Assembly: GCA_015222065.1 (NCBI GenBank)
Contig: JADFUQ010000133.1
Span: 1 to 45,748 of the forward strand
DNA: 45,748 bases
Reading direction: 5' to 3'
Origin: Bacteroidota bacterium
GTDB lineage: Bacteria > Bacteroidota > Bacteroidia > Bacteroidales > VadinHA17
Below, piece by piece: positions 30,151 to 34,731 of the stretch. Below the pieces are notes generated by a model. The model made no database searches and was not told where the DNA came from. It worked only from the letters and a program-made list of their open reading frames with translations. Both the position numbers and the translations under genes were made by a program. The stretch's first letter is position 1, and each line of letters starts with the position of its first letter.

Positions 30151-30264
30151 ATTGTTTTTTTTATTACTAAATATAAAAAGAAAAAAGGGAAATTCCAAGT
30201 TTATTATAAATCTTTTAGGTTAATTTAAATAAGGACAGGAAATATATAATGTTATTTAAAACAC

Positions 30265-30301
30265 AAATGGGAACATCTTCGTTTGAAGAATGTTCCCATT
30301 T
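30265..30301 (-). terminator. terminator hairpin at 3' end of candidate ncRNA
   Basis: AAATGGGAACAT/ATGTTCCCATTT 12-bp stem extended by CTTC/GAAG; minus-strand downstream is GTGTTTT. Confidence 0.7.
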
Positions 30302-30758
30302 CACTTTTTGATTCCCGTAGGTTTCTCAAGTGCCAAGCTACGGTTATTATGGTTTTGTCTGTCCAACTTGATCCTTTCAGATCAAATTTTTTTTACATCT
30401 GAACTGGTCATTGGTCCCCTCCGAAGAGTTTCACATCCACCAGTTCTGGCTTTTTAAAGGTCCCTTTAATACCTGGTTCTTTCGAACCCGACGCTGAAGA
30501 GTTTAACCTGTACCTGACCGTCTCCTAAGAGATGATCTTTCCAGGTCCACCTTTTTAGGTCACTTTCGGGAGAACTTCACAAACCGTTTACCAGATCAAG
30601 TATTTCGCGGTGTTACCCGTTTCATACTTTTGCTTTCTTCAAGCTGATCCGGTTGGCCTGGTCAACTTTCCCTGAGTGGGCTCTGCTCCCGATTAGCCTA
30701 AGCTTCTCTTTCACAGAACCAAACCTTTCAAGCCTACCTTTTATCTCTAACTTGGTAG
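30265..30758 (-). ncRNA. candidate large structured ncRNA, family unassigned
   Basis: ORF-free region with many complementary stems: 30315-20/30338-43, 30368-73/30380-85, 30401-08/30439-46, 30475-79/30484-88 (GAAA loop), 30591-98/30645-52, 30599-603/30624-28, 30734-38/30754-58. A Bacteroidetes -7-like TATATTTG lies just upstream on the minus strand (30761-30768). Confidence 0.7.
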
Positions 30759-31014
30759 ATCAAATATAGAAATTTGCACCTTTCCTTCCTATTCTTTTAT
30801 TGAAATACAATAAACAAAAAATTAACAATAGTTATTAACAATTGTTAATAATGCTTTTTACTTATTTTATTTAGATATGTTTACATCTTAAAGGTGATAT
30901 AATAAGATAAATACAGAGCATTTCAGGACGGGTAACATAAGTTAATCTCATCAAATAATTTGCGATTAATAAATTTTAATATATATCTTTACCTGCTAAG
31001 AAAAACAATTTTCA

Positions 31015-32529
<1,515 letters not shown>

Positions 32530-32566
32530 CTACACTTTTTAATACACAATAATTTAAAGGAGTTCT

Positions 32567-33070
32567 ATGGAAATTATTGTAAATAAGCAGATTAAAGAAG
32601 TTAAAATACTTGAACGACAAGCAAATAAATTGTTGGTGATTGTTGATAATAAAAAGTATCATGTTGATGCTAAAAAGATAGATAAGGATACTTATTCTTT
32701 ATTGTACAAAGGAAAATCATATGATCTTAAGGTAGTATCTGAAGATGATAAGAGAAAGTACTCTTTTAAACACCAGTTCAATCATTACGAGGTTGAAATT
32801 ATTGATTCTGTAGCCCGTTACAGAAAAAACAGGGGTAATAATGATATTGAAGAAGATCAAAGTTCTATCTCCTCCCCTTTGCCGGGCAAAGTTGTGAAGA
32901 TTCCTATTGAGGTTGGTGATAACGTTGAGTCCGGGCAAACACTTATAATAATCTCGGCAATGAAAATGGAAAGTGAATATAAGGCAAAGAAAGACGGGAT
33001 AGTAAAAGAAATACTTACAACAGAAGGTGCTACGATTGAAGGTAACCAGTCTTTAATCCTTCTTGAATAA
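32567..33070 (+). CDS. biotin carboxyl carrier subunit
   Basis: ISSPLPGKVVKIPIEVGDNVESGQTLIIISAMKMESEYKAKKDG biotinyl domain. Confidence 0.9.
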   Translation: MEIIVNKQIKEVKILERQANKLLVIVDNKKYHVDAKKIDKDTYSLLYKGKSYDLKVVSEDDKRKYSFKHQFNHYEVEIIDSVARYRKNRGNNDIEEDQSSISSPLPGKVVKIPIEVGDNVESGQTLIIISAMKMESEYKAKKDGIVKEILTTEGATIEGNQSLILLE

Positions 33071-33192
33071 CCTGTTAGTCTGATTTGATATAATTTTCTT
33101 GATTTCTTGTTAATTTATTTGCCGGACAACTGCCCTTGTAGAATTTTTAGTTTTAATCTTTAAACATATAAATACAGTAAAATTTTCCCACT

Positions 33193-34731
33193 ATGTTAAC
33201 ACACGAGGAGAAATACCAGGAATTTGAAAAAAGAAAAAATGCTGCGGAATTAGGAGGAGGCATTGAAAGGATAGAAAAGCAACATAAAATAGGAAAGAAA
33301 ACTGCAAGAGAAAGAATCGATATTTTGCTCGATCCGGGCACTTTCATCGAAACAGACCGGATGGTGATACATCGTGCCAGAGATTTCGATATGGATAAAA
33401 AAAAGATTCCTGGCGATGGTATAGTAACAGGGTATGGAAAAATTGATGGCAGGCTGGTTTATGTTTTCGCGCAGGATTTTACTGTATTTGGAGGAACTCT
33501 TTCAAGGACAAATGCTGATAAAGTTGTAAAACTTATGGATCTTGCCTTAAGAATGGGAGCTCCGGTGATAGGTCTTAATGATTCAGGCGGTGCCCGGATT
33601 CAGGAAGGTGTTCAGAGTTTAGGAGGATATGCTGATATTTTCTATCGTAATGTAATAAGCTCGGGTGTTATACCACAGATATCTGCTATTATGGGGCCCT
33701 GTGCCGGTGGGGCTGTTTACTCTCCTGCCCTTACAGACTTCATATTTATGGTAAACAAAACAAGTTACATGTTCGTTACCGGACCTGATGTCATTAAAAC
33801 TGTTACTCATGAGGAAGTTACGAAGGATGAACTGGGTGGAGCAATGACTCATAATTCAAAAAGCGGAGTTGCACATTTTGTTGCTGAGAATGATGAACAG
33901 GTTTTGATGATGATAAGAGAATTGATTGGATTTGTGCCGTCAAACAACATGGAGGATCCGCCCGAGAAAAAATGTACTGACGATATTAGACGGGAAGATG
34001 AGTTTCTTCAAAAACTTGTTCCTGTAGATCCCAATAAACCTTATGACATGAAAGAGATTATTTCTACTATAGCAGATGATAAGGATTTTATGGAAGTCAT
34101 GCCTATTTATGCACAAAATATTATTACCGGGTTTGTAAGACTTAATGGAAAACCGGTAGGCATAGTTGCTAATCAACCGTCAATACAAGCAGGTGTTCTG
34201 GATATCAATGCTTCGACAAAGGGAGCACGCTTTGTAAGGTTTTGTGATGCATTCAATATCCCTCTGGTAACTTTTGAGGATGTTCCTGGTTTTTTACCAG
34301 GTACGACACAGGAATTTGGAGGGATTATACGTCATGGTGCAAAATTGCTATATGCTTTTTCAGAAGCAACTGTACCTAAAATTACTGTAATTACAAGAAA
34401 AGCATATGGAGGTGCGTATTGTGTAATGTCAAGCAAACACATTGGAGCAGATGTAAACTATGCTTATCCAATGGCAGAAATTGCTGTAATGGGTCCTGAT
34501 GGAGCTGTAAATGTTTTGTTTCGTAACAAGTTAAAGGATACCGAAAAATCTGATCTTGTTAATGAATACAAGACAAGCTTTGCTAATCCATATAAAGCAG
34601 CTGAATTAGGATATCTGGACGAAATTATCTATCCTAAACAAACCAGATTTAAGTTAATTCAGGCTCTCGAAATGACTGCAAATAAAGTAAAATCAAATCC
34701 TCCGAAAAAACATGGTAATATCCCTCTTTAA
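33193..34731 (+). CDS. acyl-CoA carboxylase carboxyltransferase subunit (propionyl-CoA carboxylase beta/MmdA-like)
   Basis: [72 protein letters not shown]. Confidence 0.93.

Follow-up and report, generated by a model that had tools for sequence, protein, structure and literature searches.

A large structured noncoding RNA of Bacteroidota with a conserved closed core and variable arms

What is encoded by half a kilobase of DNA that is dense in complementary segments and holds no usable open reading frame? The question is raised by a locus in the window (the whole stretch of 45,748 nucleotides analysed here), where such a segment has an uncharacterised gene (30198-29377, minus strand) on one side and, on the other, a biotin carboxylase gene (Pfam) at 31015 on the plus strand. 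An earlier note, made from the sequence alone, had proposed that the minus strand encodes a structured noncoding RNA of about 0.5 kb. Its overall interpretation is supported, while its detailed structure was only partly right. The stretch does contain a structured RNA, with homologues in many genera and strong covariation among them, and the sequence, the strand and most of the complementary segments are as first described. We are all but certain that 30756-30262 on the minus strand is a genuine structured noncoding RNA gene of a new family absent from Rfam 15. The gene (30262..30756, minus strand) is defined by both conserved ends together with a promoter and a terminator, and the predicted transcript, of about 0.5 kb (~490 nt), would start at ~30756 and end just beyond the terminator.

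Several observations bear on the strand and on the absence of coding potential. No open reading frame is long enough to cover 30262-30756, in agreement with what had been reported. The minus-strand fold has an energy of -169.8 kcal/mol (z = -7.3 relative to dinucleotide shuffles, with 0 of 100 equally good), and the plus strand has a fold z of -5.5. Minus-strand transcription had also been argued from the fit of the GAAA and UUCG loops, and this is borne out across the family, where RNA-sense tetraloops greatly exceed their complements (CTTCGG 75 versus CCGAAG 9; CGAAAG 79 versus CTTTCG 7; CGCAAG 40 versus CTTGCG 5).

How widely is this RNA kept? Searching the DNA of 60 related genomes returned full-length copies within the genus, at 86-97% identity, and partial matches in farther relatives; once lined up, the homologues are conserved at both ends and not in the middle. 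Counted with R1, a covariance model of the RNA 3′ end, the RNA is present in 106 of 117 genomes of its own bacterial family (62/65 good genomes, 15/15 genera), nearly always as a single copy. When 85,462 species were searched with the exact 5′ core pattern, 46 stretches came up, 41 of which have the 3′ core 130-540 nt downstream. Of the remaining five, three are cut by the end of a contig or stored stretch, one has the promoter and no recognised 3′ core, and a match in Hallella, with neither promoter nor 3′ core, looks like chance. Carriers of the pattern include Algoriphagus resistens, A. aquaeductus, Algoriphagus sp. AK58, Cyclobacteriaceae, Lentimicrobiaceae and Flavobacteriales, these names being deposited record titles under which some metagenome bins are possibly misnamed.

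Outside its own family, the RNA is patchy in Bacteroidota (Bacteroidales, Cyclobacteriaceae including Algoriphagus, and Flavobacteriales), and it was found here only in that phylum. At class level, R1 matches 18/296 genomes and R2 21/396, both of them undercounts owing to strict filters. Some lineages therefore carry the RNA family-wide, while in most others it is either missing or unrecognised. Because its occurrence beyond the family is so patchy, it is not universally required. A phage or mobile origin was rejected, since no viral contig matched the exact 5′ core pattern and the gene is nearly always single copy.

The most conserved parts of the RNA lie at its two ends. All members share a 5′ core, CCAAG-UGAGNGAUAAAA-GGC, and a 3′ core, GCC-ANAAUAACNGUAR-CUUGG, and these pair end to end, as helices P1 and P2, around a near-invariant asymmetric internal loop. 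In P1, CCAAG (30751..30755, minus strand) pairs with CUUGG (30333..30337, minus strand), and the two strands covary: 98.8% of cells are paired, three pairs show two-sided changes, and compensation is repeated (CCAGG/CCUGG, CCAGA/UCUGG, UCAAA/UUUGA, UCAGG/CCUGA). The 5′ strand of the internal loop (30739..30750, minus strand) reads UUAGAGAUAAAA in the window and UGAGNGAUAAAA in the family, with (nearly) invariant columns over 55 distinct sequences. P2 pairs GGU (30736..30738, minus strand) with ACC (30351-30353) and varies across the family as GGC/GCC, GAC/GUC, GAU/AUC and GGU/ACC. Its 3′ strand together with that of the loop (AUAAUAACCGUAG; 30338..30353, minus strand) contains the segment that is ANAAUAACNGUAR in the family, of which AAUAAC is invariant in the 55 distinct sequences.

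Taken together over these 55 sequences, P1 and P2 have 94.2% of their cells paired and two-sided changes in 7 of 10 pairs. Two-sided cells number 48 against 9.8 in shuffles, a control that leaves the relatedness of the sequences in place, and 0 of 500 shuffles were as high; the signal is lost when the partner strand is shifted by a single base. The alignment consists of spliced ends picked by conserved motifs, and the conservation of the loop is therefore partly by construction. The covariation of the pairs is less affected, because the motif search tolerated mismatches. This closing core had been missed in the earlier note, which placed a 5′ hairpin CUACC/GGUAG here; that hairpin lacks conservation and is in competition with P1, CCAAG pairing instead with CUUGG near the 3′ end.

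Covariation also supports a third element, the P3 hairpin (30302..30332, minus strand), with 95 two-sided cells against 36.1 in shuffles and 0 of 500 as high. The covariation across homologues on which the RNA reading was to stand or fall is thus strong in P1, P2 and P3. The apical loop of P3 is cUACGg in the window, and cUACGg, cUUCGg or cCACGg across the family. A pairing CCGUAG/CUACGG had been suggested for the same segment. It lacks support: two of the six pairs are each broken in 19/43 sequences, and only 2 cells are two-sided. CUACGG is the UNCG-type loop of P3. A pseudoknot of the form CNGUAG/CUACGG was rejected likewise: many members break its pairs, and CUACGG behaves like the loop of P3.

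The RNA appears to be a transcription unit of its own, as had been proposed from a -7-like box and a terminator hairpin, both of which are conserved in place. The intrinsic terminator hairpin occupies 30265..30301 (minus strand), and in other loci a hairpin and T-rich sequence directly follow P3. The -7 promoter box, TATATTTG (30761..30768, minus strand), corresponds to the Bacteroidetes consensus TAnnTTTG (PMC9723704) and is kept at the same place across loci. It stands just before the core in 61/69 loci, 59 of them with a -33 element, against 21/2097 background windows.

The two cores are separated by 130 to 540 nt, made up of arms that are lineage-specific and abound in UUCG and GNRA tetraloops. 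In 48 divergent members these interiors are rich in purines and contain CTTCGG (cUUCGg loops) 48 times where 4.8 are expected, with GNRA loops also in excess. Among the window's relatives, 16 of 26 predicted arm pairs show compensatory two-sided changes. The secondary structure first proposed fared unevenly: several of its helices covary, while the two discussed above fail. Compensatory changes support GGUUC-GAAA-GAACC, GAACUGGU/ACCAGUUC and CUC-UUCG-GAG. The first of these is enclosed by CUCUU/AAGGG, a covarying helix not previously listed, and the resulting arm (30459..30502, minus strand) shows two-sided changes at 4 of the 5 pairs at its base, in up to 11/17 sequences. The arm GAACUGGU/ACCAGUUC (30401..30446, minus strand) carries the hairpin CUC-UUCG-GAG, with two-sided changes in both helices. 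More variable is the three-way junction arm, CCGGAUCA/UGAUCUGG with two hairpins (30591..30652, minus strand), which is absent from two genomes of the window's genus that lack ~115 nt of the middle at this point. The sequence AAACTCTTC does occur twice, as had been noticed; each copy (30504-30496 and 30431-30423) belongs to a hairpin of its own, and reading the pair as a functional repeat is therefore unnecessary.

Does the RNA belong to a class already known? The RNA matches no Rfam 15 family at gathering thresholds, and relaxing the limit to E = 10 added nothing sensible; twelve homologous loci gave no Rfam match either, and the papers searched contain no description of it. The family thus remains unassigned, as first stated. 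We place it as a new family under the loose heading 'large structured bacterial noncoding RNA', and claim membership in no known family. RNase P RNA and tmRNA, both already set aside in the earlier note, were rejected. Bacterial RNase P RNA is likewise long, structured and single copy, but the RNA has no RF00010 match and a canonical gene lies elsewhere in 23 of 24 genomes searched; for tmRNA, ARAGORN finds no tRNA or tmRNA in the window. The window's own assembly (G000) has an RNase P RNA match of only 55 nt and 19 bits (C5:4795-4849); relatives have the full gene, and the short match is probably an assembly gap. The 6S RNA models RF00013 and RF01685 do not match this RNA. Bacteroidales-1 (RF01693) and 6S-Flavo (RF01685) are likewise noncoding RNAs described from Bacteroidetes (PMC2864571), but this RNA matches neither family. 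One genome (G010) has a weak 6S-Flavo score on a different contig from this RNA. The ends of Y RNAs and YrlA pair around a conserved internal loop, and their interior is variable; the present RNA appears similar in both respects. A Y RNA was rejected, as the partner TROVE/Ro60 protein is absent from 43/43 genomes tested.

Could the element instead act on the gene beside it? A 5′ leader or riboswitch, its terminator controlling the downstream gene 30198-29377 (minus strand), would suit the window, where the terminator ends the RNA and a same-strand gene follows. Across loci, however, the downstream gene lies on the same strand in 29 cases and on the opposite strand, convergently, in 23, and its identity is inconstant. 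Orientation has already largely refuted this explanation, which we hold to be highly improbable, and membership among riboswitches or cis-leaders was rejected for want of a constant same-strand downstream gene. Given neighbours that differ from locus to locus and a downstream gene that is convergent almost as often as parallel, a cis-leader is unlikely and a role in trans likelier.

In the window, 31015-34731 holds biotin carboxylase, biotin carrier and carboxyltransferase genes, a set also met next to the RNA, differently arranged, in other lineages. Of 56 sampled loci, 18 have biotin carboxylase genes close to the RNA, some arranged head-to-head and some convergently, and this proximity is probably old synteny. 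A constant neighbour gene was rejected: an acyl-CoA carboxylase operon recurs, but not generally. Acyl-CoA carboxylase genes lie close by in more than one arrangement, a point against action in trans: the RNA may have a more local role.

Upstream of the promoter stands a further conserved feature. About 50-95 bp before the RNA, the window carries a DnaA-box-like array, TTATTAACA-AT-TGTTAATAA followed by TTGTTAAT and TTGTTTAT (30808..30851, no strand assigned). Sites of the form TTATNMACA/TGTKNATAA number 85 in 51/59 upstream regions, against 1.9 expected; their spacing peaks near 11, 23 and 34 bp, and the distance from array to promoter is fixed. A palindrome, TTAACAATTGTTAA, lies at -93 to -95 in many loci. 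It occurs once in the window's assembly, at the RNA locus, where by our own estimate ~0.2 would be expected by chance. The sites resemble DnaA boxes in sequence; when the identity of the array was checked, almost no DnaA boxes were seen upstream of dnaA. Regulators of the OmpR/PhoB type would also suit direct repeats spaced at an 11-bp period.

Such an array raises the question of whether the conserved DNA is a replication origin and the RNA merely an origin-linked transcript. The tandem DnaA-box-like 9-mers, with TGTGGATAA (TTATCCACA) in some Cytophagales, would fit, as would the single occurrence of the palindrome in several genomes and the presence of dnaA within ~20-75 kb on the same contig in four genomes. 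Against this, neither GC skew nor third-position gene skew changes sign across the locus in G154 and G007, the array keeps its fixed distance from the promoter, and the RNA and dnaA are ~1.1 Mb apart in G009. Skew is noisy in G009, G013, G025, G035 and G461. An origin was rejected for G154 and G007, the two with clear skew and no switch at the locus, and we regard it as very unlikely overall.

We tentatively favour a different explanation, giving it somewhat less than an even chance: that the RNA works in trans, as the RNA component of a ribonucleoprotein. Binding or activity would then reside in the closed core (P1, conserved loop, P2 and P3), and the variable, expandable arms hung on it, rich in tetraloops, would be scaffold. 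Transcription might be switched by a regulator binding the tandem upstream array, either DnaA or an OmpR/PhoB-type response regulator. Speaking against a ribonucleoprotein, the single candidate protein partner tested, the Y-RNA-binding TROVE/Ro60, is found in 0/43 genomes. The explanation as a whole, joining the RNA family to the trans-acting ribonucleoprotein, is on balance probable. A bolder form, in which the RNA represents a new large ribonucleoprotein or ribozyme-like class, with an invariant closed core that performs a conserved cellular function in part of the Bacteroidota and with transcription coupled to the replication cycle via DnaA, seems to us a long shot.

Large size and extreme UUCG and GNRA enrichment also recall the 'ornate' RNAs GOLLD, ROOL and OLE, which form homo-oligomers (PMC12286853) and are likewise large, tetraloop-rich, multi-domain bacterial noncoding RNAs. 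A protein-free RNA assembling with its own copies would accommodate the repeated modules of ~105 nt in Algoriphagus-type members. The long member L020 has a 38-nt element four times at ~105-nt spacing, and by our own arithmetic three extra modules would explain the difference between spans of 205 nt and 523 nt. On the other hand, the distance from core to core ranges about four-fold, down to ~130 nt in the smallest members, unlike a fixed cage geometry. The RNA differs further in matching none of the Rfam families of GOLLD, ROOL and OLE, in its end-to-end closed core with variable arms, and in being chromosomal, family-wide and found here only in Bacteroidota. GOLLD and ROOL are carried by phages or prophages, whereas 0 viral contigs contain the exact 5′ core. 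We consider self-assembly of this kind unlikely. Repeated modules (UGAGACGGGUAACCGCAGAAGUGC) stand in the interiors of the long members L020, L060, L081 and L023, and the window's AGUAUGAAACGGGUAACACCGCGAAAUACU resembles part of one such module.

Still less probable in our estimation is a base-pairing regulatory small RNA, or a sponge whose arms titrate an RNA-binding protein. A promoter with a dedicated upstream array would be in keeping with regulation of this sort, as would purine-rich arms with recurring motifs; yet the most conserved residues lie in a closed structural core rather than an exposed seed, and the arms are poorly conserved.

Near-universal retention in the family, a dedicated and conserved upstream array and a near-invariant core all point to a function under strong selection. 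Bacteria have few large structured RNAs, and those that are understood (RNase P, tmRNA, 6S) have mostly proved central. Cultured Algoriphagus strains are among the carriers, which opens the function of the RNA to direct testing. Two genomes, G104 (L025/L037) and G516 (L121/L138), have two matches each to the 3′ end models, and in these the RNA may be duplicated.
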